A stretch of DNA of 64,000 bases from Muribaculaceae bacterium. Lineage in GTDB: Bacteria; Bacteroidota; Bacteroidia; Bacteroidales; Muribaculaceae. The notes under the pieces were generated by a model. That model was not told where the DNA came from. It saw nothing but the letters and a program-made list of their open reading frames with translations, and made no database searches. The stretch lies in the NCBI GenBank assembly GCA_017473615.1, contig JAFUKL010000017.1, positions 50,011 to 114,010 of the forward strand, read 5' to 3'. The position numbers and the translations under genes were made by a program. Positions 160 to 47,892 of the stretch are shown one piece after another (positions within the stretch are counted from its first letter, which is position 1; each line of letters starts with the position of its first letter).

Positions 160-202
160 TGTGGGATTACTAATCCCTAAATTCATTAATTTCCATAGAA
201 AT

Positions 203-1180
203 ATGAAAAATGTATTGGTTACAGGTGCCGATGGATTCATAGGCTCACACCTTGTGGAACTGCTGCTTGATGAGGGATACTGCGTGCGCGCACTCAGCGT
301 TTACAATTCGTTTAATTATTGGGGGTGGTTAGAAGATATTCACCATCCTAACCTTGAGGTTGTGTGCGGCGATGTACGCGACCCTAATTATTGCCGCGAG
401 ATAATGAAAGGATGTGACACAGTGCTGCATCTTGCGGCGCTTATCGCCATCCCTTACAGCTACACCGCCCCCGACAGCTATGTTGATACCAACATAAAAG
501 GAACTCTTAATATCTGTCAGGCTGCACGGGACTTAGGCGTGGAACGTGTGATTGTCACATCCACAAGCGAAGTTTACGGTACTGCACAATACGTGCCTAT
601 CGACGAGAAACACCCTCGCCAACCACAATCTCCGTATTCAGCCACTAAAATCGGAGCTGATGCCATAGCAATGAGTTTCTATAACGCTTTCAATCTGCCC
701 GTGGTCATCGCTCGCCCATTCAACACCTACGGTCCTCGGCAATCGGCAAGAGCAATCATCCCTACTATCATCACACAAATAGCTAACGGCGTGCGAGAAA
801 TTAAAGTGGGCGACCTTACACCCACACGCGATTTCAACTACGTAAAGGATACTTGTCGCGGATTCCTTGCATTGGCAAAAGCACAGGGAATAGAAGGACA
901 GGAAATAAACATAGCCACCAATTCGGAAATATCAATGGAGAACACCTTGAAAACCATTGCACGACTGATGAATGCCGATGTGAATTGGGTACAAGACCCT
1001 GAACGCTTACGTCCGTCAAAGAGTGAAGTTTTCCGCTTGTGGGGAGACAACACCAAGATTACCACTCTTACCGACTGGCAACCGCAATACAGCATCGAGC
1101 AGGGACTATCGGAAACCATTGAATGGTTCACCAAGAAAGAAAATTTGGCGAAATATAAAGCAAACTTATACAACAAGTAA
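203..1180 (+). CDS. legB: NAD-dependent 4,6-dehydratase, LegB-like (nonulosonic acid pathway)
   Basis: Extended short-chain dehydrogenase of 325 residues. An N-terminal Rossmann motif (VTGADGFIGSHLVE) binds NAD, and the active site shows the TSTSEVYG serine region and Y145-x3-K149 (YSATK). Family knowledge: LegB oxidises C4 and dehydrates C5/C6 of an NDP-GlcNAc-type sugar, the first step toward legionaminic acid. The stretch VRALSVYNSFNYWGWLED soon after the nucleotide-binding motif is typical of this subgroup. The start is ATG 203 because the conserved fold begins at MKNVLVTG; an upstream GTG at 161 adds 14 unlikely residues. An acetyltransferase follows after 13 bases and neuB, neuC and neuA lie further on, supporting a sugar role. 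The aminotransferase normally paired with LegB is not in the window. Another NDP-sugar dehydratase or epimerase of the same family remains possible. Confidence 0.8.
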   Translation: MKNVLVTGADGFIGSHLVELLLDEGYCVRALSVYNSFNYWGWLEDIHHPNLEVVCGDVRDPNYCREIMKGCDTVLHLAALIAIPYSYTAPDSYVDTNIKGTLNICQAARDLGVERVIVTSTSEVYGTAQYVPIDEKHPRQPQSPYSATKIGADAIAMSFYNAFNLPVVIARPFNTYGPRQSARAIIPTIITQIANGVREIKVGDLTPTRDFNYVKDTCRGFLALAKAQGIEGQEINIATNSEISMENTLKTIARLMNADVNWVQDPERLRPSKSEVFRLWGDNTKITTLTDWQPQYSIEQGLSETIEWFTKKENLAKYKANLYNK

Positions 1181-1193
1181 GGAACAATAAGCT

Positions 1194-1832
1194 ATGGGAG
1201 AGAAACGATTGATACTTGTGGGTGGAGGCGGTCATTGCAAGGCTGTAATCGATGTCATCCTATCAACCGGACGCAGCATCTGTGGCATACTCGACAACAA
1301 CATCACCATAGGCAGCACCGTTCTTGGTATCCCCATAATAGGCAATGACAACGATATTGCGTCATTCGCAGACGCAAATACCGAATTTATCATTACCGTA
1401 GGACAAATCAAAACACCAACCATTCGCCGAGAAATAGTCGAGAGAATAAAATCTGCTGCCGGAACGTTAGCCGCACCCGTTATTGCAAGTTCCGCTCATA
1501 TTGCAAAAGGGGTTACGATAGGCAGAGGTACGGTGATTATGCATAATGTCGTTATCAATTCAGCCGCCACCATAGGAGAAAACACAATCATCAACACCGG
1601 TGCTATAGTGGAACACGACTGTAGCGTAGGTGATTTCGTTCACATCTCCACAGGAGCAATTATAAATGGAGGTTGCAACATCGGCTGCAACACATTCATA
1701 GGAAGCCATGTCACCGTTGTCAACGGAAAACAAGTGTCCAATGACATCGTTGTGGGTGCAGGAGCAACAGTAACTTGCGACATCACCCAATCCGGCACTT
1801 ACTGCGGCACCCCGGCAAAACCCATAACATAA
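1194..1832 (+). CDS. neuD: NeuD/PglD-family sugar acetyltransferase
   Basis: A 212-residue protein with a small N-terminal nucleotide-sugar-binding Rossmann unit (LILVGGGGHCKAVID, residues 5-19) followed by left-handed beta-helix hexapeptide repeats (about 95-200). H141 in the VEHDC motif sits where PglD-type enzymes carry the catalytic histidine. It would transfer acetyl from acetyl-CoA to an amino group (LegH/PglD role) or to a sialic acid hydroxyl (NeuD role). The 13-base gap after legB implies one transcript. The neighbouring AT-rich Rhs island begins only 4 bases after its stop, so the rest of its pathway (neuB, neuC, neuA) now lies 9 kb downstream. Family assignment is firm; the exact acceptor is inferred from context. 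Confidence 0.83.
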   Translation: MGEKRLILVGGGGHCKAVIDVILSTGRSICGILDNNITIGSTVLGIPIIGNDNDIASFADANTEFIITVGQIKTPTIRREIVERIKSAAGTLAAPVIASSAHIAKGVTIGRGTVIMHNVVINSAATIGENTIINTGAIVEHDCSVGDFVHISTGAIINGGCNIGCNTFIGSHVTVVNGKQVSNDIVVGAGATVTCDITQSGTYCGTPAKPIT

Positions 1833-1836
1833 AACC

Positions 1837-2241
1837 ATGAAACATTTAATTACAATTCTAATATTACTAATCTCCATAACTATAGAATCGCAAACGATAA
1901 CATATAGTTATGATGCTTGCGGTAATCGTATAAGTCGTGAAATCATATTATCCCGTTCCATAGATACTTCAAAAAAATCATTTGAAGAAAAATTATCAGA
2001 AAATACAATTATTATATACCCAAATCCTACTGAAGGTATATTAAAAATAGAAATTAAAGGATGGGAACAAACCGGAAATCAATCAATCATCGTTTACGAT
2101 TCTAATGGAGGATTAATTCATGATACCATTATAACATCATCTATTACAGAAATTGATTTAAGTAATTGTACTAATAGCATATATATCTTAATAATTTCAT
2201 ACAACAACGAAACTTCAACTTGGAAGATTATCAAGAAATAA
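1837..2241 (+). CDS. Small secreted protein with T9SS type A sorting domain, Rhs companion
   Basis: A 134-residue protein. Residues 1-19 form a signal peptide. Next comes one YD-repeat-like sliver (ITYSYDACGNRISRE, about 20-35), then a charged linker, then a type A C-terminal sorting domain beginning at Y61-P-N-P and ending WKIIKK. Such domains direct export through the type IX system and removal of the domain at the surface. The mature protein would therefore be only about 40 residues. It starts 4 bases after the neuD stop and ends 6 bases before the giant Rhs gene, so the two are probably cotranscribed. The Rhs protein itself ends in a toxin and not in a sorting domain. I do not know a defined function; a leftover of an Rhs gene or a secretion partner are both possible. 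Confidence 0.7.
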   Translation: MKHLITILILLISITIESQTITYSYDACGNRISREIILSRSIDTSKKSFEEKLSENTIIIYPNPTEGILKIEIKGWEQTGNQSIIVYDSNGGLIHDTIITSSITEIDLSNCTNSIYILIISYNNETSTWKIIKK

Positions 2242-2247
2242 TTTAGA

Positions 2248-5200
2248 ATGAAGAAAATATTATTTTTCATATTATATATTCTAATATCTTTATTTCATGC
2301 AAAAACATACGCCACAAACGGGCATGAAACAGCCATAACTGACACTGTTAATCTATCAAATCTAACCGATGAACAATATGAATCATATTTTGATTCAATA
2401 AAATCGAAATTATACCCCCAACCAATTTTAGTATCCGCCGATTCATCTAAGATTACGCAAGAATCGCCAATAGAAACATATTCCTTATATGATGACGAAA
2501 TTATAATATCTTCTGTTAGTCTTGATTACACAAAAGATGTCGGACAAATACCCATTAAATCAGATGTTACCTCAACCGGTGCAAAAACTTATGAGATCCC
2601 GATTGATGTATATCCCGGAATAAAAGAACTGAACCCAAAATTATCTTTATATTATAATAGTCAGCAAGGCAACAATATTTTAGGCGTGGGGTGGTCGCTA
2701 TCGGGAATACAAGCGATTACACGAGGAGTAAAAACAAAACTCATGGATGGAGATACAGGAGGTGTAAAACAAAAACCTGATGACGCTTTCTATCTAAACG
2801 GAATAAGATTAGTAAAACTTAGCGAAACAGATGAAAATATAATCTATGAATCCGAAAAAGGAAACATAAAAGTAAAGGCTTATATATCAGGAAATATTAC
2901 TAAATATTTTGAGGTATTTTATCCGAATGGAAATAAAGGAATCTTCGGGAAATCATCAAATACATCGACCAACTACCACAGCTACCCTTTAATGTCATTA
3001 TACGACTTATTTCAAAATAGTATAGAATACATTTATAATTATTTCGATAATCACTATTCTCTCAGAAGAATAGAATACAATAATGCAACTGTTGAATTTC
3101 AATATATCACACGCACAGACACTCTTAATTATTATTCCGGAGGATATAATATTATAGAAACAAAATTATTATCAAGCATTATATCTAAATTTGAAAATAA
3201 AACATTAGGAACCTATACTTTATCATATACCACAAACAACTATTTATCATTACTATCGCAAGTAGATTATGATTGTAACAGTAGGACGTTCAACCCTATT
3301 CGTTTTTTTTATAAAAAAAACCATGAGAATGAACCTTTTTCAAAAAGAAACGTCCAACTATTTGAATGGTATCGCTTTAATTCCTCAAGTACAATACGAA
3401 CAGTACGCGGTAAATTTGATTATATATCCGGTGATGATGGTTTGATTGTATTCCCGAACAATAATCCTTATTGGAAATATTATCAGCATTCCACATGGTT
3501 TAGAGATACAAAGAATTATTTTAAAAATCTATACGAAAACAATCAAAAAATTATCGTATATACAAATCTTTCAGGATTTACAACAGTAACACAAGGAATA
3601 ATGACAACCGGAAATGGATTCATTGATGTTCTTTGTGCTGATTTAGAAGGAAAACAAGACGAATATATAATAAAAATCAATAATACCGTTACAAACTCAA
3701 AAGACAGAGTCACATTCAAGGTATATCGAGCAAGTATTATGAGTGGATTAGTCAATATGTATTCAAGAGATTATGACTTTTCTACTGTATATAAGGACGA
3801 AAGCGACAACCAAAGCATACAACCAAAGTTCTATTATTCAGGCGATTTTAATGGTGACGGAAAATCTGAAATATTGGCTGTTTCTGTTCATGAACCATTT
3901 GGAGACACCACAAAACCTTCTATTTGTTATTTATTTGACTTGGCAAATAATCGGATTTTACATCAAGAACATGTCTTTGATTTTAATTTCGAATTTGTAG
4001 GAACATCTCAAACAGATCCACAAGCAGCAACCAATAATTCAGATAAACTACTTGTTTTAGATGTAGATGGCGATGGGAAAAGTGATATTTGTCACATTGA
4101 TAAGGACGGAATACACGTATATACATTTAATTTGTCAGGCAGTTCTTTGGTTGCAGAGAAAATGTACTCTTTTCCTTATTTAAACAAGCAAATTCTACGA
4201 TATAAAGAAGTTTTACTTGGCGATATGAATGGAGACGGCTTGGGTGATTTGGTCGTTACTCCAAGTTGCTACAATTCCGGTGATAACAGTTGGTGGATAT
4301 GTAATTCTACCGGAGCCGGATTTTCTACTGTCCATGATTTTGAGTCAGCATATAATTCCACAGATACAAATATCGGATTTATGTTACAAGATGTAAATAC
4401 TGATGGAATTTCCGATATAATCAAATTTCAGAGAAACAGTGCTAATGTATACTTTGCAAAAAACAACACAGCTAATTCCGACAATATTCAAATTATATTA
4501 TCTCACTATAATAATACAGCAAAATTAATTCCTCTCAATGTTACATCTCGTAATACTTACACTCAACTTTTAGCGCTGAATGACAGTATTATAACTCGTA
4601 TATCCCACAACCGGCATTATGCCGATGAAACACTTATCAGAGGAATGGCTAATAGTTTGGGGGTGGTCGAAAGTAATACTTATCAAAAAATAGATGCCGA
4701 AAGTGTAGAATCGGGTTTCTACACAAAGGGGATAGACGCTGTTTTTCCATACGTAAATATACAAGAACCGCTTTCTATTGTTTCATCGGTAGAAACATTT
4801 GTAAATGGTTCTTTTTTTGAAAAATTGGATTATAGTTATACCAATGCAGTAATTCATCGACAAGGATTAGGATTCTGTGGTTTTGGTGAAATAAAATGTA
4901 CTGACAGCAGAGCAAAAACAAGAACTCAAATATTCGACCCTTATAAATATGGGGTAATGACAAAAGAGATTACCGATGAATACGAACATATTTTCAGTTA
5001 TTCTTCTTTACGACGCTCAAACGGCACTTTGCGTTTACATTTAGGCAGTAAAACGGAAAAAGATTTATTAAAAGGAACACAAACAGTGACTTTGATAGAA
5101 TATGACGATTATGAAAGTCCTAAGAGCATTGCCGTATATTATCCTAATGGAATAACAACCAACACAAATAATTATTACTCCAATAATACGAATGTAGGAG

Positions 5201-8200
5201 ACGGCTATTATATAGGTTTCTTGAACGAAAAAACTGTTGTCACTCATCGTACAGGAACTGAATCTATTACTGAACGAATGTTCATTCCTGCTCATTCTTC
5301 CATGCAACCAAGCATTAAACAATATTTCATTAATGGTAATCTTATTGAAAATAATGTATATCAGTATGATGAATACGGGAATCTTACATCACACCGAGTA
5401 ACACCATACGAATCAACGGTGTCGCAAGTAATCAATTATAACTATGATAGTTATGGGCGACTTATAAAGAAAACCGACCCGATGGGACTTTCCAATGAAT
5501 ATGTTTTTGATGACAAAGGACGTGTATCGGTTACTAAAGATAAACGTGGTAATGCGACAACCCACGCATACGACTCTTTTGGCAGAGACACCTTGACCGT
5601 TTACCCCGACAATACTAAGAAAGCGATAAAATATGCTTGGAGTACCGACCGCAACGGAGAATTATACACCATCACAACTTCAGAAACCGGAAAACCTACC
5701 GAAATTGTTTATTATGATGCTTTAAATCGGGAAACTCGTAGAGGAACGGTACGATTTGACGGTTCAATGATTTATGTGGATAAAGTTTACAACAGCATAG
5801 GTAAACTCAAAAAAGAATCGTTACCATACAAAACCGGCTCGGCAAGCCTTTGGAATATCTACACATATGATAGTCATGATAGAGTTACCGCCTATACAGA
5901 AGCATCAGGACGCACCACGGCTTATTCTTATAACGGCACAAAAATCACAACCGTTGAAGACGGTGTAAGCATAACTCGCGATTACGATGCACTCGGTAAT
6001 ATTATTACAGTGGAAGACGCAGCCGGAATTATATCGTATAACCTATGTGCCGATGGAAAGCCCGCATCCATTTCAGTTCCGGGCAATGTCACTACGACTT
6101 TCGGGTATGATAGGTACAGGCGACGCATATCATTAAATGATCCAAGTCATGGAATCACCACATACGAATATAACGCTGCCGGTAATATTTATAAAGTAAC
6201 CAACGCACGAGGTGACAGCACTATTTATTCATACGACAACTTCAATCGCCTTGTATATGCAGTAATGCCTGAAATGGTAGTCAGTTATATTTATAATGAA
6301 TATAATGAGCCGATAGAATCCATAACAGAATATATGAGTGGAACATCATTACAATCATATTCATATACTGATTATGATAATTATGGTAGAATATCCACAT
6401 ATTCTGAAACGTTAGATAACAAAACTTTCAGAAAAGACTTTGAATATTCAGATGGTAATGTATCATGTGTAAAATATTACTATAAATCATCTTTATTAGC
6501 GAAAGAGAACCATGAATATATAAATGGGCATTTGGAGCGTATTAAGATAGATGATTTCACACGTTACAAACTATCTGCTGAAAATGAATTCGGACAACCC
6601 ACTCAAATATCAAGCTACAGAAATACCAGATACTATAATTACGACAGTTATGGCTTGCCAATAGGACGAAAAGTAAAAAATGCACATGGCGATACTATTC
6701 AGAATGAAACATATTCGTTTGACATTGCCACTCGCAACCTGCTCTCCCGAAGCGACAGAATACATAACACTGTAGAAACATTCTCTTATGACAATCTTAA
6801 TCGTCTCGTCGGCGACAGTTTCGGAGATATACAGTATGATATAAAAGGAAATATCCTGTTTAAATCCGGAGTCGGCTCAATGGAATACAATCTCCCATCA
6901 AAGCCTTACGCTGTCACCAATGTGGAAAATGTAGGAGAATCGATACCCAGATATACACAATCTGTCAGCTACACATCATTCCATCGTCCTAATGTGATAA
7001 GCGAAAACGGCATTGAGGCAAGAATACAATATGATGGGAATGGCGACAGACACAGAATGTATGTTAAACGTAATGGTAATACCATTCTCACACGTCACTA
7101 CTTCTCCGACTGTTATGAGCGTGATGTGGATTCACTATCAAATGTAACACAACGCTTATACCTTGGGGGCAGTACATACGACGCCACAATGATGCTTGAA
7201 ATAGATAGTACAGGCAGTGAATTGCATTATCTGTTCCGAGATTATTTAGGCAATGTCAGGCTTGTAACCGACCGCTTTGGTGATGTCGTTCAAGAACTGA
7301 GCTATGACGCTTGGGGCAGATTGCGTAACCCTGCCACACATGAAGTGTATGCGCCGGGAGAAGAACCCGAATTGAAGATAGGGCGAGGATATACAGGACA
7401 CGAACATTTACCATGGTTTGGACTGATAAACATGAATGCCCGATTGTATGATCCCGTCTTGGGACGTTTCTTGTCCCCCGACCCGTTTGTTCAAGCTCCG
7501 GACTTATCACAGAGTTTTAATCGCTATACTTATGCCATGAACAACCCATTCCGCTACACCGATGAATCCGGAGAATTTTGGTGGCTTGTGATAGGTGCAG
7601 TAATAGGTGGTGCAACGAATGTGATTATGAAAGCCGTCAGCGAGCAATTACACAGTTGGGGTGATGGCTTTGCCGCATTTGGGATAGGTGCGGCTGCCGG
7701 TATGGTGGGAGGAGCTGTAAGCGGATGGGCATTTGGTGTTGCCGGGGGTGCTGCCGCAGGTGCTGGTGGATTCTATGCGGGATCCTTAAGTGGAGCTGCA
7801 GGCAGTGCCATTTCGGCTCCGATATTGAGTGGAGGTAATTCGTTATATTTTGGAGACCCGTTTATGTCGGCAAGTGAGTATGCCTATGGCGTACTTGGAG
7901 GTGCTTTGGTGGGAGGAACTATCAATGGAATCACAGCAAGCGTCAACGGCAAAAATTTCTTCACAGGTAGGGGAAAGAACTCTGTTGAAGATATTATTGC
8001 AGGATATAAAGATTCTTTTTCGCTCAATGAGCATCATAATACAACAAATTATTCTGCTCACGATTCGCATAATGGAATAAACACTTCATCAACAAATAAT
8101 ATTACTAATAACAATTACACAAGATTTATAGCAAATGAAGATGGTTCTATTATTGATATGAAACCAACTATTGACAGAGTTTCAAAAGGAGAAACTATAT

Positions 8201-8400
8201 CAAGATTTAAGAATGATGGTACTATTTTTCGCAATGAAGAATTGTTACTACCTAAAATAAACACCAATTATACAGAGTGGGTTGTTCCTACGCCAGGATT
8301 ACCCTTACACCGTGCAGGACCTATGCGTATTGTATTTGGAGGCGAAAAATATTGGTTTACTAATGACCATTATAAGAGTTTTATATTATTAAATCCATAA
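2248..8400 (+). CDS. Secreted SpvB/Rhs polymorphic toxin with C-terminal barnase-family ribonuclease
   Basis: A 2050-residue protein. Residues 1-23 are a Sec signal peptide. An SpvB-like region (YNSQQGNNILGVGWSLSG) lies around 134-151. Four FG-GAP/VCBS calcium-binding loops lie near 532 (DFNGDGKSE), 605 (DVDGDGKSD), 658 (DMNGDGLGD) and 715 (DVNTDGISD). YD repeats fill about 1045-1600. The Rhs core (DYLGNVRLVTD to NRYTYAMNNPFRYTDESG) covers about 1660-1775, followed by a glycine/alanine-rich hydrophobic stretch to about 1905 and a variable tail. The last 80 residues align by eye with barnase and RNase Sa: IFRNE, then YTEWVVPTPG with E2010, MRIVFGG with R2027, and NDHYKSF with H2041, the general base, arginine and acid of that family. 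No PAAR or T6SS N-terminus is present, so export via Sec and an outer-membrane route is inferred. The barstar-like gene next door supports the ribonuclease call. The gene is much more AT-rich than neuD or neuB. Confidence 0.88.
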   Translation: MKKILFFILYILISLFHAKTYATNGHETAITDTVNLSNLTDEQYESYFDSIKSKLYPQPILVSADSSKITQESPIETYSLYDDEIIISSVSLDYTKDVGQIPIKSDVTSTGAKTYEIPIDVYPGIKELNPKLSLYYNSQQGNNILGVGWSLSGIQAITRGVKTKLMDGDTGGVKQKPDDAFYLNGIRLVKLSETDENIIYESEKGNIKVKAYISGNITKYFEVFYPNGNKGIFGKSSNTSTNYHSYPLMSLYDLFQNSIEYIYNYFDNHYSLRRIEYNNATVEFQYITRTDTLNYYSGGYNIIETKLLSSIISKFENKTLGTYTLSYTTNNYLSLLSQVDYDCNSRTFNPIRFFYKKNHENEPFSKRNVQLFEWYRFNSSSTIRTVRGKFDYISGDDGLIVFPNNNPYWKYYQHSTWFRDTKNYFKNLYENNQKIIVYTNLSGFTTVTQGIMTTGNGFIDVLCADLEGKQDEYIIKINNTVTNSKDRVTFKVYRASIMSGLVNMYSRDYDFSTVYKDESDNQSIQPKFYYSGDFNGDGKSEILAVSVHEPFGDTTKPSICYLFDLANNRILHQEHVFDFNFEFVGTSQTDPQAATNNSDKLLVLDVDGDGKSDICHIDKDGIHVYTFNLSGSSLVAEKMYSFPYLNKQILRYKEVLLGDMNGDGLGDLVVTPSCYNSGDNSWWICNSTGAGFSTVHDFESAYNSTDTNIGFMLQDVNTDGISDIIKFQRNSANVYFAKNNTANSDNIQIILSHYNNTAKLIPLNVTSRNTYTQLLALNDSIITRISHNRHYADETLIRGMANSLGVVESNTYQKIDAESVESGFYTKGIDAVFPYVNIQEPLSIVSSVETFVNGSFFEKLDYSYTNAVIHRQGLGFCGFGEIKCTDSRAKTRTQIFDPYKYGVMTKEITDEYEHIFSYSSLRRSNGTLRLHLGSKTEKDLLKGTQTVTLIEYDDYESPKSIAVYYPNGITTNTNNYYSNNTNVGDGYYIGFLNEKTVVTHRTGTESITERMFIPAHSSMQPSIKQYFINGNLIENNVYQYDEYGNLTSHRVTPYESTVSQVINYNYDSYGRLIKKTDPMGLSNEYVFDDKGRVSVTKDKRGNATTHAYDSFGRDTLTVYPDNTKKAIKYAWSTDRNGELYTITTSETGKPTEIVYYDALNRETRRGTVRFDGSMIYVDKVYNSIGKLKKESLPYKTGSASLWNIYTYDSHDRVTAYTEASGRTTAYSYNGTKITTVEDGVSITRDYDALGNIITVEDAAGIISYNLCADGKPASISVPGNVTTTFGYDRYRRRISLNDPSHGITTYEYNAAGNIYKVTNARGDSTIYSYDNFNRLVYAVMPEMVVSYIYNEYNEPIESITEYMSGTSLQSYSYTDYDNYGRISTYSETLDNKTFRKDFEYSDGNVSCVKYYYKSSLLAKENHEYINGHLERIKIDDFTRYKLSAENEFGQPTQISSYRNTRYYNYDSYGLPIGRKVKNAHGDTIQNETYSFDIATRNLLSRSDRIHNTVETFSYDNLNRLVGDSFGDIQYDIKGNILFKSGVGSMEYNLPSKPYAVTNVENVGESIPRYTQSVSYTSFHRPNVISENGIEARIQYDGNGDRHRMYVKRNGNTILTRHYFSDCYERDVDSLSNVTQRLYLGGSTYDATMMLEIDSTGSELHYLFRDYLGNVRLVTDRFGDVVQELSYDAWGRLRNPATHEVYAPGEEPELKIGRGYTGHEHLPWFGLINMNARLYDPVLGRFLSPDPFVQAPDLSQSFNRYTYAMNNPFRYTDESGEFWWLVIGAVIGGATNVIMKAVSEQLHSWGDGFAAFGIGAAAGMVGGAVSGWAFGVAGGAAAGAGGFYAGSLSGAAGSAISAPILSGGNSLYFGDPFMSASEYAYGVLGGALVGGTINGITASVNGKNFFTGRGKNSVEDIIAGYKDSFSLNEHHNTTNYSAHDSHNGINTSSTNNITNNNYTRFIANEDGSIIDMKPTIDRVSKGETISRFKNDGTIFRNEELLLPKINTNYTEWVVPTPGLPLHRAGPMRIVFGGEKYWFTNDHYKSFILLNP

Positions 8401-8409
8401 TATTACGAC

Positions 8410-9192
8410 ATGAAACAAATAGTGTATTTTAAAGAATTAAAATCATTGAAATATACCGACAGCTATAATGCGTATATTTCATCAAATGATATATTATCGC
8501 AACTTTTTCAACATTTCGATATTCCGGAATGTATTTATGAAAGAACTTGGTATGGATTGAAAAATGCACTTGAGGAACAATGGTGGTTCTCAACAAATAA
8601 TATAGTTATCATCCTTGAAGATATATCACGTATACCAGACAAAGACATGGTAAACTATATATGGCTAATAAATAATCTTCATGAATCTCAACTTAATTTT
8701 ACTTTTATATTTAATGAAAAAGACATTGCAATTATAAAGTTATTGCATACATTTGTTGAAATTGCAGATTTATTAAACGACATCATTAAAGCCAAAGATT
8801 ATATATGGAAAAACTTTTGTGGTGGAGATAAAATATTGTTTCAAGATATTTGTTACCATCATAAGGAATATCGCTATATTGCAAATATAAAAAGTATTAA
8901 GAATAAAACTGAATTATTTGAAGAACTTAGTACAAAGTTACATTTACCATCTTACTTTGGACATAATTGGGACGCATTAAATGAATTGTTCAATGATTTT
9001 CATTGGATTGATGAAAAAGAAATTATAATAATTCATGAAGATGTTTCTTCTATGAATCAAAATGATTTAGAAATCTATATTAAAATCATCTCGAATTCTT
9101 TGATTTCTTGGCAACAAGATACAAAACATATTATTAAATATATTTTCAAAACAAAGGATAAAGATTTAGTTCAATGTATAATGAATAAATAA
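8410..9192 (+). CDS. Double-barstar immunity protein for the Rhs ribonuclease
   Basis: A 260-residue protein starting 9 bases after the toxin stop. Its C-terminal half (about 150-250) matches barstar: LPSYFGHNWDALNELFNDF resembles the barstar helix-2 region, with D188 at the place of barstar D35 and glutamate at the place of the key D39, followed by IIIIHEDV and a last beta strand. The N-terminal half (about 15-110) repeats the pattern weakly (ERTWYGLKNALEEQWW, then IVIILEDIS) but lacks the aspartates that plug the RNase active site. I infer a tandem duplication with one active and one degenerate barstar unit. Barstars bind and block barnase-family RNases in the cytoplasm of the producer. Absence of a signal peptide fits this. 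The composition is AT-rich like the toxin gene. Confidence 0.82.
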   Translation: MKQIVYFKELKSLKYTDSYNAYISSNDILSQLFQHFDIPECIYERTWYGLKNALEEQWWFSTNNIVIILEDISRIPDKDMVNYIWLINNLHESQLNFTFIFNEKDIAIIKLLHTFVEIADLLNDIIKAKDYIWKNFCGGDKILFQDICYHHKEYRYIANIKSIKNKTELFEELSTKLHLPSYFGHNWDALNELFNDFHWIDEKEIIIIHEDVSSMNQNDLEIYIKIISNSLISWQQDTKHIIKYIFKTKDKDLVQCIMNK

Positions 9193-9194
9193 AA

Positions 9195-9651
9195 GTGATG
9201 GTTAAATATCTAAAAGAGGGAAATATATTCAATATAGAAGGTGTAATGAATTATGCTCATGGGTATAATTGTGCCGGTGCAATGGGTAAAGGTATTGCTT
9301 TACAATTCAAAGAAAAATATCCTCAAATGTTTCGTCTATATAAACAAAAATGTAAAACCGGAGATTTTGTCCCGGGTGATGTTTTTGAATATAACTATGG
9401 TAATGGGTATGTATATAATTTAGGCACACAAAAAAACTTGGAGGACAAAAGCTGAAATTGAATTTATAAGAATGTCATTAGAAAATATGATGTTACAAGC
9501 TGAAAATCGAAAAGTCAAAGCCATTGCTTTGCCTGCAATAGGAGCCGGATTAGGCGGACTTGATTGGAATGATGTTAAAAAAGAGATTAAATATATTTCT
9601 AAAAAATATCCTAATATCGATTTATATGTCGTAGAATCTTATAAACCTTAA
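9195..9651 (+). pseudogene. Macro-domain (ADP-ribose-binding) protein, frameshifted
   Basis: The first 86 codons give a macro domain start: GYNCAGAMGKGIALQFKEKYP is the ADP-ribose-binding loop of the Poa1p/DarG-like group. The frame then stops at 9453. The expected continuation (TWRTKAEIEFIRMSLENM, then ALPAIGAGLGGLDW, then the end at 9651) is intact in the +1 frame. The change lies in a run of seven A at about 9428-9434; six A would restore one reading frame of about 151 residues. A real mutation or a homopolymer sequencing error could explain it. The slip needed is +1, so the classic -1 slippery signal does not apply. GTG 9195 and ATG 9198 are both possible starts. Position in an immunity cluster suggests protection against an ADP-ribosylating toxin; that is inference. 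Confidence 0.75.
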
Positions 9652-9660
9652 ATTCATATT

Positions 9661-10452
9661 ATGGCAAAAAGGATAGTAACAAGAATTGGAGATATATTTT
9701 GTGTTGAGATTGATGGCGAATATAAATGTTACTTTCAATTTCTGGAGAGAGATGTCAACTTGTTAAATAGCGATGTAATAAGAGCCTTTAAAACACGTTA
9801 TCCGATAGATTATGAACCTGTTCTTTCTGAAATAGTTCGAGATGATGTGCTTTTTTATACGCATACATTTATAAGAGTTGGATTGGAGTATAACGCTTGG
9901 TATAAGATAGGTAGATTGAAACCCAAAGAACCATATAATCTTACAAATGTAAAATTTGGAACTTATTGTGAAACAAGATTAAAAAGAGATAATGGCATTT
10001 TTGAATTTATATCTGTCAGCCCTTTAGAGAATTGGACTACGTGGTATGTTAACAGAAAATATGAATGTGATGTTGATTTAAAGAGTGAAGATATAGAGAT
10101 ACTGGAACTTGGAGGAGTTATGCCCTATTCACAGATTTTATATAGAATCAAATATGGATATTTTTTATCTTGGTCTAAAGGATATGACATTATCAAGCGT
10201 CGACCGATTGCAGGGGTGAATAGTTACACGAAACATGAGATTGATGGGAACGTGTGCTATTTTCATTATATCGGCGAGGATATACATCGTGAAATTATTA
10301 TAACTCCACAGGGTGTAATAAAACTTACCCAAGATGTCCCCGAAAGAAATGGATATACATTTCATGCCCGTAAGTTTTGGGAAATCAATTGGGCTTTCAA
10401 AGACCACATTTCTGAAGATGATTTCCTCACAGCATGGAACAAATACACATGA
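9661..10452 (+). CDS. Hypothetical protein, immunity-like (Imm26-like N-terminus)
   Basis: A 263-residue protein without signal peptide or membrane segment. The N-terminus (KRIVTRIGDIFCVEIDGEYKC) resembles the opening beta strands of Imm26-type immunity proteins, but I cannot show more than that. It is rich in tyrosine, tryptophan and charged residues. It follows the macro-domain gene by 9 bases and is as AT-rich as the toxin island. Its place in a row behind an Rhs toxin and its barstar makes an orphan immunity function the best guess. The target toxin is not in this window. Confidence 0.55.
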   Translation: MAKRIVTRIGDIFCVEIDGEYKCYFQFLERDVNLLNSDVIRAFKTRYPIDYEPVLSEIVRDDVLFYTHTFIRVGLEYNAWYKIGRLKPKEPYNLTNVKFGTYCETRLKRDNGIFEFISVSPLENWTTWYVNRKYECDVDLKSEDIEILELGGVMPYSQILYRIKYGYFLSWSKGYDIIKRRPIAGVNSYTKHEIDGNVCYFHYIGEDIHREIIITPQGVIKLTQDVPERNGYTFHARKFWEINWAFKDHISEDDFLTAWNKYT

Positions 10453-10506
10453 AATCTTATATAACGAATTAAAGTTTGAAAGATAATTATCAGAAAATGA
10501 ACTGAT

Positions 10507-10599
10507 ATGAGAAAAGTATTATTTTTCATATTATATATTCTAATATCTTTATTTCATGCACAAACATTCGCTACTATACATACCTTGTACAAAAACTAA
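10507..10599 (+). pseudogene. Truncated duplicate of the Rhs signal-peptide region
   Basis: A 30-codon frame starting MRKVLFFILYILISLFHAQTF. Bases 10517-10560 are identical over 44 bases to 2258-2301 inside the Rhs gene start, with near-identical start codons in front. After residue 21 the frame diverges and stops. This is the 5' end of a second Rhs-type gene whose body has been lost, marking the right part of the toxin island. Confidence 0.8.
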
Positions 10600-46449: not shown

Positions 46450-47892
46450 ATGAAAAACACAAACATTAATCATGAGCAGGAGGCGGCACGTATTCTGCGA
46501 GCCGCCTACAGGGCATGGATAAGCGGCAGCGAACTGCGTCGCTCCCGCCAACGCAACAAGGATTTTACTTATGGTCGTCAATGGAACGACTACACAACCG
46601 ACATCGATGGAAACCCTATTACCGAATATCGCAAACTAAAGGAATCCGGCAAAGACCCCATCACCAACAACATGATGCGACAAATGGTGAAAAGTGTTGT
46701 AGGACGTTTTCGCAACAATATCAAAGAAAGCACACAAGAGAATCCCGTATCGGAATCCATACGTAACGCCAACAGCCTCGATGAACTTGATAGTCGCATT
46801 CTGGAAGAGTTTCTCATTTCAGGTTGCTGTATCCAACGCGTAGACAAAGATTTCCGCTCAGGACAAGGCATTCGTGTGGATAATGTGAACATAAACCGCT
46901 TTTTCATCAATTCTGTTCATGACACACGTTCATGGGATTGTGAAATCGTAGGACAAATACACGACCTCAGCCTTGCCGAGCTGCTGATGCGTACAGGCTC
47001 ACGCAATAATCGCAATCGCGCAGCATGGATAAGAACCTTGTATTGTAACGAGAATACAGAAAATGCCATAGCCGATTTTACGTCCCGTATTGGGGCAAAT
47101 AATGAAACCGGTAGCGGATTCTGGTATGCACAGGGCGGAAAGTTCCGCGCCATTGAAGTATGGACTCTTGAAAGTAGAGAAGTGCTTAAATGTCATGATC
47201 CTCACAACGCAGCCTATTATTCGGTATCCATTGAAGAGCAGCCCATCATAGACAAAGAAAACCATCACAGGGAAAACAAAGGTATCCCGGGTATAACCTA
47301 CCAATGGGATATCGAACAAACTTGGTTTTGCAGCTGGTTTACCCCTATGGGAAATCTGATTACCAAATATCCTTCACCTTACGTTCACGGCTCACATCCT
47401 TATGTGATGAAATTCTATCCGCTTACCGATGGAGAAGTCCATTCTTTTGTGGAAGATGTCATCGACCAACAGAAATACGTTAACCGCCTCATTACTCTTA
47501 TCGATCACATAATGGGAGCCAGTGCTAAAGGCGTTCTGCTATTCCCCGAAAACGGACTGCCCGACGGTTTCACATGGGAAGATATAAAGCGTATATGGAG
47601 TGCAACCAATGGCATCATTCCATATTCTCCGAATCACTCGGGAGATGTTCCAAAACAGATTTCCACCAATGCCACCGACATTGGAGCTTTTGAAATGATA
47701 CAACTGCAAATGAAACTTTTTGAGGATATTTCGGGAGTAAACAGCGCACTTCAAGGCAAATTAGCATCATCTGCAATCGGGTCAGATACATTTCGTCAAC
47801 AAATAGACAATGCAACGATTGCACTTGCCGATATTTTCGACACATTCAATGCATTTCGACAAGAAAGAGACCACAAAATACTACAAATCTAA
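46450..47892 (+). CDS. Solitary phage portal-like protein
   Basis: A 480-residue protein resembling the P22-type portal fold: an N-terminal helical region with GRQWNDY, DPITNNMMRQMVKSVVGRFR, a beta-rich wing, the clip-like FVEDVIDQQKYVNRLITLIDHIMGASAKGVLLFPE, and NSALQGKLASSAIGSDTFRQQIDNATIALADIFDTF near the end. P22 portals are longer, so the C-terminal barrel is missing. No terminase, capsid or tail gene is near, and housekeeping genes flank it. It has its own promoter box and a terminator directly after it. A prophage remnant or a domesticated gene are both possible. Confidence 0.7.
   Translation: MKNTNINHEQEAARILRAAYRAWISGSELRRSRQRNKDFTYGRQWNDYTTDIDGNPITEYRKLKESGKDPITNNMMRQMVKSVVGRFRNNIKESTQENPVSESIRNANSLDELDSRILEEFLISGCCIQRVDKDFRSGQGIRVDNVNINRFFINSVHDTRSWDCEIVGQIHDLSLAELLMRTGSRNNRNRAAWIRTLYCNENTENAIADFTSRIGANNETGSGFWYAQGGKFRAIEVWTLESREVLKCHDPHNAAYYSVSIEEQPIIDKENHHRENKGIPGITYQWDIEQTWFCSWFTPMGNLITKYPSPYVHGSHPYVMKFYPLTDGEVHSFVEDVIDQQKYVNRLITLIDHIMGASAKGVLLFPENGLPDGFTWEDIKRIWSATNGIIPYSPNHSGDVPKQISTNATDIGAFEMIQLQMKLFEDISGVNSALQGKLASSAIGSDTFRQQIDNATIALADIFDTFNAFRQERDHKILQI

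Follow-up and report, generated by a model that had tools for sequence, protein, structure and literature searches.

A small YD-motif protein with a type IX sorting domain as candidate export or anchoring partner of an Rhs ribonuclease toxin in a Muribaculaceae genome

The 64,000-nucleotide (nt) stretch of DNA analysed here (the window; Muribaculaceae bacterium, assembly GCA_017473615.1, contig JAFUKL010000017.1, positions 50,011 to 114,010) carries an Rhs polymorphic toxin gene (product P0001) followed by a barstar immunity gene (P0002). Directly ahead of the toxin gene lies a small gene whose product, P0003, joins a single YD motif to a C-terminal sorting domain (CTD) of the type IX secretion system (T9SS). 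Toxin and small protein (hereafter the partner) are read as a two-gene antibacterial T9SS weapon with its antidote, in which the YD-CTD partner gives the Rhs toxin its exit from the cell, or its anchor at the surface, in trans; the probability of this reading is put at about 0.6. The genome assembly, 78% complete, consists of 51 contigs totalling ~2.0 Mb. Coordinates within the window are collected in Table 1.

The partner began with a signal peptide (judged by eye), immediately followed by one YD motif, which a linker joined to a T9SS type A sorting domain (PF18962, E-value 5.2e-12; TIGR04183, E-value 1.3e-10). Its gene started 4 nt past the acetyltransferase gene and ended 6 nt ahead of rhs. 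An AlphaFold2 model of the partner made from 55 sequences had a predicted local distance difference test score (pLDDT) of 88.9; the CTD blocks reached 95-98, and the YD motif was modelled as a short beta hairpin with lower confidence (blocks of 62-74). The top Foldseek match, and the only one at E ≤ 0.001, was 8glk_D (E 5e-4, TMt 0.85), a 75-residue chain from the solved structure of a T9SS complex carrying the NucA substrate; this chain is taken to be the CTD of that substrate. Ranks 2 and 3 were two chains matched poorly over their length, and rank 4 was the CTD of mirolase (8qb1, TMt 0.74). Across 32 family sequences (alignment A1), picked by gene position and a CTD-like end with no motif filter, G29 of the YD motif was invariant and Y25 and R34 were conserved in at least 90%. 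The near-perfect YD motif of another alignment (A3) arose partly by construction, because the scan behind it used the motif as its pattern.

Within the family, the YD motif and an adjacent Rhs gene occurred together. A plain protein search for P0003 in 198 family genomes gave 33 matches in 25 genomes, and loci were obtained for 30 of them. A YD-like motif was present in 18 of these 30 CTD loci (16 recognised by pattern and two, L005 and L014, by eye), and Rhs was the next gene in 16 of the 18, versus 0 of the 12 loci without the motif (Fisher p = 1e-6). With loci classed by the pattern only, Rhs was next in 14 of 16 with the motif versus 2 of 14 without. The two YD loci without Rhs next were L028, masked downstream, and L009, with other genes in between.

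The same association was found from the toxin side. SpvB was matched in 42 of 397 family genomes, and 36 loci of a shorter Rhs class were fetched, leaving out SpvB fragment matches at G142 and G062. A YD-CTD gene stood directly upstream of Rhs in 35 of the 36, with gaps of -103 to +82 nt, 12 of which were 4-nt overlaps (-4); at the 36th locus (L118) the upstream gene encoded 373 amino acids (aa) with a CTD-like end by eye. A second, longer SpvB-Rhs class (L126-L138, 13 loci fetched, mostly 2100-3100 aa) had a different gene of 660-1016 aa directly upstream in 13 of 13 loci (some of these genes being truncated where the fetched stretch ended). Five of six of these upstream genes passed the TIGR04183 cut-off and the sixth scored 22.8 against 23; with Pfam, three of three were under the CTD cut-off.

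A phylum-wide scan of named genomes with the YD-motif pattern yielded at least 590 stretches, and the best 80 of 106 confirmed loci were kept, of which 6 end at a contig edge and 74 were assessable. Rhs lay within 320 nt of the partner in 51 of the 74 (a few being fragments) and within 2.6 kb in 9 more (two of these shorter than 120 aa). Partners were found in Prevotella, Hoylesella, Porphyromonas, Bacteroides cellulosilyticus, Labilibaculum, Marinifilum, Sunxiuqinia and others, and also in Flavobacteriia, Ignavibacteria, Chlorobiota and Kapaibacterium; two partner records titled Bacillota and Ruminococcus, both metagenome bins, are taken to be mislabels. Loci of Ignavibacteria and Kapaibacterium (L171, L188, L207) had no full Rhs gene adjoining. 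An unfiltered sample of the class (395 genomes, at most 10 candidates scored per genome) had matches in 279 genomes, and many among the matches listed covered the CTD alone; these matches included 29 new loci, 23 with a full-length small partner. In the remaining 6, Rhs followed in one (L235), which has a longer partner. Some genomes were common to both fetched sets, e.g. L097 and L148.

Variants of the partner gene were also observed. Longer partners in L174 (2-4180), L185 (7540-9510; three PPC stretches) and L235 had other domains ahead of a YD motif and the CTD, and Rhs directly next. Arrays of YD-CTD genes were present in L154 (two genes, 2631-5144) and G938:C76 (three genes, 1794-6854), and Rhs tail pieces lay between or beside YD-CTD genes in L154 and L246. 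The arrays look as if the partner gene moves with toxin cassettes.

The toxin itself had no T9SS CTD in Pfam and NCBIfam profile scans of P0001. A CTD profile matched 0 of 77 Rhs open reading frames (ORFs) with a complete 3' end at E ≤ 10; the same profile matched 122 of 128 partners at E ≤ 1e-3, which is not an independent control because the profile was built from partners. SprA was present in the genome of the window (TIGR04189, 2767 bits). It was also present in 70 of the 71 genomes examined, which comprised 41 from the family and those carrying 30 of the 80 phylum-wide loci; the single genome without a match is 81% complete. Among the genomes with both SprA and the pair is that of a tractable commensal, Bacteroides cellulosilyticus DSM 14838 (locus L194). 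In some of the phylum-wide genomes tested for SprA, the partner had no adjacent Rhs.

In the proposed mechanism, the Rhs protein and the partner would both pass through Sec to the periplasm, and the Rhs shell would fold around the ribonuclease (RNase). The single YD hairpin, N-terminal in the mature partner, would dock onto the YD-repeat shell, and the CTD of the partner would direct the pair to the T9SS, with the toxin being exported or held at the surface. At a competitor cell, the RNase would be released, enter and cut RNA; barstar, in the cytoplasm, would guard the producing cell and its kin. The partner could serve as a carrier through the pore or as a surface anchor for an Rhs protein leaving otherwise. 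The preliminary description of the locus had left it unclear how a Sec-exported Rhs shell reaches competitors; the YD-CTD partner encoded at 1837-2241 is a candidate answer and falls short of proof. Neither this upstream gene nor the doubling of the barstar figured in that description.

A wider form of the proposal is advanced with less confidence, at somewhat under even odds: that export through the T9SS in trans is phylum-wide, an adaptor of ~135 aa (one YD hairpin plus CTD) clipping onto or completing a CTD-less Rhs cocoon and carrying or displaying it. If the adaptor reading were true, the Rhs toxin would need only a Sec signal, and its C-terminus would be free for tip exchange because the adaptor supplies the export signal beyond Sec. 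Cargo would then be recognised in trans via a single repeat unit of its own fold.

Several points weigh against the export or anchoring role of the partner. Cargo of the T9SS is known to carry its own CTD. The YD motif of P0003 matched PF05593 (E 0.012) and TIGR01643 (E 0.039) under the cut-off of both, and the YD hairpin was the least certain part of the model. Of the assessable phylum-wide loci, 14 of 74 had no Rhs inside 2.6 kb, and in the class sample Rhs was found within 400 nt downstream in only 12 of the 23 full-length small partners among the matches listed; some of the other 11 adjoin Rhs fragments by eye (e.g. L232, L244, L246). Judged by the family counts against those of the phylum and class, partner and Rhs are very tightly tied within the family and more loosely beyond it. 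The adjacency counts are of related loci and not of independent events, and the adjacency could be regulatory or hitch-hiking. The SprA count, which has no comparison to genomes lacking the pair, indicates compatibility and not dependence.

The partner might be a surface anchor or cap only, exported alone by the T9SS and holding or closing an Rhs shell that leaves otherwise, e.g. in vesicles. This overlaps the preferred explanation, in which carrier and anchor are both allowed, and as a separate account it is rather doubtful. The shell of 2000 aa would be large for the pore, and some partners have extra domains, as with the PPC stretches of L185; on the other hand, no gene for a different route across the outer membrane was noticed next to toxin and partner, and the pairing is equally compatible with a carrier.

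It is unlikely that the locus is an ordinary SpvB/TcdB-type Rhs toxin that has a barnase-barstar cassette and shares its operon with an unrelated T9SS substrate, the small CTD protein. Toxins with SpvB, propeller and RHS, and barnase-like toxins with Imm-Barstar, are already described in the portion of PMC3482391 available, and 11 of the 23 full-length partners of the class sample, among the matches listed, had no directly adjacent Rhs. Opposed to this are the presence of the partner at 35 of 36 SpvB loci of the family, the lack of a following Rhs at all 12 CTD genes in which the YD motif is missing, and the Rhs-type YD motif borne by the partner. Moreover, the genome of the window had 36 CTD matches, whereas a single ORF accounted for its RHS-repeat matches.

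The two ORFs reported earlier were recovered as described (2248-8400, 2050 aa; 8410-9192, 260 aa), with E2010, R2027 and H2041 at the residue numbers given for P0001. By Pfam, P0001 contained SpvB, FG-GAP and 7 RHS-repeat stretches; its signal peptide was judged by eye. It has the layout of an SpvB/TcdB-type Rhs toxin: SpvB, propeller, RHS repeats and core, C-terminal toxin and downstream immunity gene. The Gly/Ala-rich stretch between core and tip is a possible membrane-passage segment. Neither PAAR nor a TpsB-type protein was matched in the proteins scanned with Pfam and NCBIfam, and VipA, of the type VI secretion system (T6SS) sheath, had no match in the 78%-complete genome; the earlier view of an SpvB/FG-GAP front in place of a PAAR front thus stood, and delivery by the T6SS was rejected on the same two negatives. 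No TANFOR model was among the NCBIfam matches of P0001 at E ≤ 1, and membership of that group was likewise discarded. The TcA component PF18276 gave no match in the genome, and none in control genomes either.

PF00545 (Ribonuclease) matched the last 219 aa of P0001 with E 1e-6 and 29.6 bits (cut-off 24), a match obtained with those 219 aa alone and absent from the scan of all 2050 aa. In a phmmer search against the PDB, the tip was nearest to RNase Sa3 (1mgr, E 5.1e-8) and also matched RNase Sa chains. E2010, R2027 and H2041 aligned to E, R and H of RNase Sa3, which are presumably its catalytic residues. Assignment of the tip to the guanyl-specific ribonuclease N1/T1 family is supported by this homology, in agreement with the barnase-family tip first proposed.

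The neighbouring protein, named earlier as a barstar, matched Barstar (PF01337) at residues 159-237 (E 9.9e-17, 61.1 bits, cut-off 23.4) and was homologous to solved proteins, which bore out that name; it was the only barstar match within the 78%-complete genome. Its two halves aligned locally with a score of 87 versus a shuffled mean of 34 (z = 8.5; 0 of 2000 shuffles reached 87), and with phmmer at E 0.002 and 0.0063 (set of 4945 ORFs); the N-terminal copy alone had no Pfam barstar match. The inhibitory residues of barstar helix 2, in numbering and role, are taken to be Y29, D35 and D39. In the C-terminal half, Y29 and D35 were kept and D39 was conservatively replaced by E, by an alignment to solved barstar with E 0.12 only. 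The N-terminal half, by the half-to-half alignment, was without the inhibitory signature. The simplest reading of the sequence is that P0002 is a tandem barstar with one putatively working and one changed copy, because the N-terminal half lost the inhibitory aspartates. A structure model of P0002 made without an alignment (pLDDT 38) was not used. Relatives of P0002 were found in 5 of 393 order genomes including its own; the other four matched the C-terminal half only, one of them through stops.

Table 1. Location of the genes and features discussed, in window coordinates
Feature	Position	Strand	Basis
Epimerase	161-1180	+	Name read from sequence
Acetyltransferase	1194-1832	+	Name read from sequence
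P0003, YD-CTD partner, 134 aa	1837-2241	+	
YD motif of P0003, residues 23-34	1903-1938	+	PF05593, TIGR01643, alignment
T9SS C-terminal sorting domain of P0003	2014-2232	+	Profiles, model, Foldseek
P0001, SpvB/FG-GAP Rhs polymorphic toxin, 2050 aa	2248-8400	+	ORF
SpvB domain, residues 109-212 of P0001	2572-2883	+	PF03534, E 5.8e-11
RHS repeat-associated core, residues 1686-1775	7303-7572	+	TIGR03696, E 2.5e-18
Gly/Ala-rich stretch, core to tip of P0001	7573-7947	+	Sequence reading
Ribonuclease N1/T1-family tip	8182-8388	+	PF00545; E2010, R2027, H2041
P0002, tandem barstar immunity protein (simplest reading), 260 aa	8410-9192	+	ORF
N-terminal barstar-like copy without D35/D39-like signature	8443-8730	+	Homology to C-terminal copy
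C-terminal canonical barstar copy	8884-9120	+	PF01337
Macro-domain gene in two frames (9198-9455, 9424-9651)	9198-9651	+	Profile search
P0004, probable orphan immunity gene of another Rhs tip	9661-10452	+	
Putative relic of second partner-rhs junction	10475-10574	+	Sequence repeats
neuB-, neuC- and neuA-like genes	from 10862	+	Names read from sequence

A block of ~9 kb (1833 to ~10,850) appears to have been inserted into a nonulosonic-acid-type sugar operon, because the acetyltransferase and neuB are adjacent in a genome of the same genus (G021; matched parts 11 nt apart). Another genome of that genus (G042) had neuB and neuC, with no acetyltransferase or epimerase match in the 1.5 kb before them. 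In the block, the first piece of the macro-domain gene matched DarG (NF048014, E 2e-16), and the DarT toxin, which would go with a gene of DarG type, had no match among the neighbouring proteins scanned. P0004 had no Pfam match above the cut-off and no NCBIfam match; in L089 and L097 an Rhs gene was immediately followed by a relative, and relatives at a greater distance downstream were present in L091, L097 (second copy), L101 (two) and L170. P0004 is probably an orphan immunity gene for another Rhs tip. Behind it, an 89-nt repeat of the rhs start (10486-10574, 84% identity) was overlapped at its beginning by a 24-nt repeat of the partner gene (88%), which alone could be chance; together the repeats are interpreted as what probably remains of a second partner-rhs junction. 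Given this junction relic and the P0004 relatives near Rhs genes, displaced immunity genes seem to make up the tail of the island. That the locus as a whole is decayed, with partner and tail fragments being remnants of rearranged rhs genes, is very improbable: the junction relic, the macro-domain gene split across two frames and the orphan immunity-like gene would fit it, but partner, rhs and barstar are all full-length open frames, and the partner layout is unchanged in distant genomes, on which ground decay was rejected as origin of the small gene. Elsewhere in the window, a gene of 480 aa at 46450-47892 appeared phage-portal-like by eye and was surrounded by ordinary chromosomal genes.

Two-partner secretion places toxin and delivery function in two genes, and Rhs effectors of the T6SS consist of an Rhs shell and a C-terminal toxin; the present locus differs from both in having no PAAR or TpsB-type match in the scanned proteins and no VipA in the 78%-complete genome. 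A close counterpart is in Apibacter, in which most rhs genes adjoin T9SS type A sorting-domain genes and are probably tied to the T9SS, according to the sections available of PMC8125069. The link between Rhs and the T9SS is already known, as far as that partial text goes, because it has been printed for Apibacter. The SpvB/TcdB Rhs genes described there share with this locus the adjacency and the suggested involvement of the T9SS; in the same sections, the neighbour is not called a single-YD protein, and neither its spread nor the lack of a CTD in Rhs is given (PMC8125069).

TANFOR toxins are Sec-exported toxins of Bacteroidota whose neighbourhoods are enriched in T9SS substrates and for which T9SS export has been hypothesised (accessible part of Jana et al. 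2020, PMC7073777); they differ in their TANFOR front and SprB-repeat neighbours, P0001 being without a TANFOR match. The question of delivery is left open in the available portions of both PMC7073777 and PMC8125069. A literature search, with most subscription journals and preprints outside its reach, found no description of a T9SS partner of Rhs with a single YD motif, of how widely it is distributed, or of the absence of a CTD from Rhs proteins. The single-YD partner provides a testable explanation of the way in which Bacteroidota Rhs toxins exported by Sec could get to other cells, and, if it is an export or display factor, the T9SS would be a delivery route for Rhs toxins.

The toxin and antidote parts belong to known types. 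In the part of Zhang et al. 2012 (PMC3482391) available, signal peptide, SpvB, propeller and RHS repeats together form one export type, and Imm-Barstar is the immunity protein of barnase-like toxins, Bacteroidetes being included in both cases; the terms 'PorSS' and 'Por secretion' were not found in that text. With the TcdB/TcaC-type toxins described in it, the present system has in common the signal peptide, SpvB, propeller and RHS, to which a T9SS-CTD partner and an apparent tandem barstar are here added.

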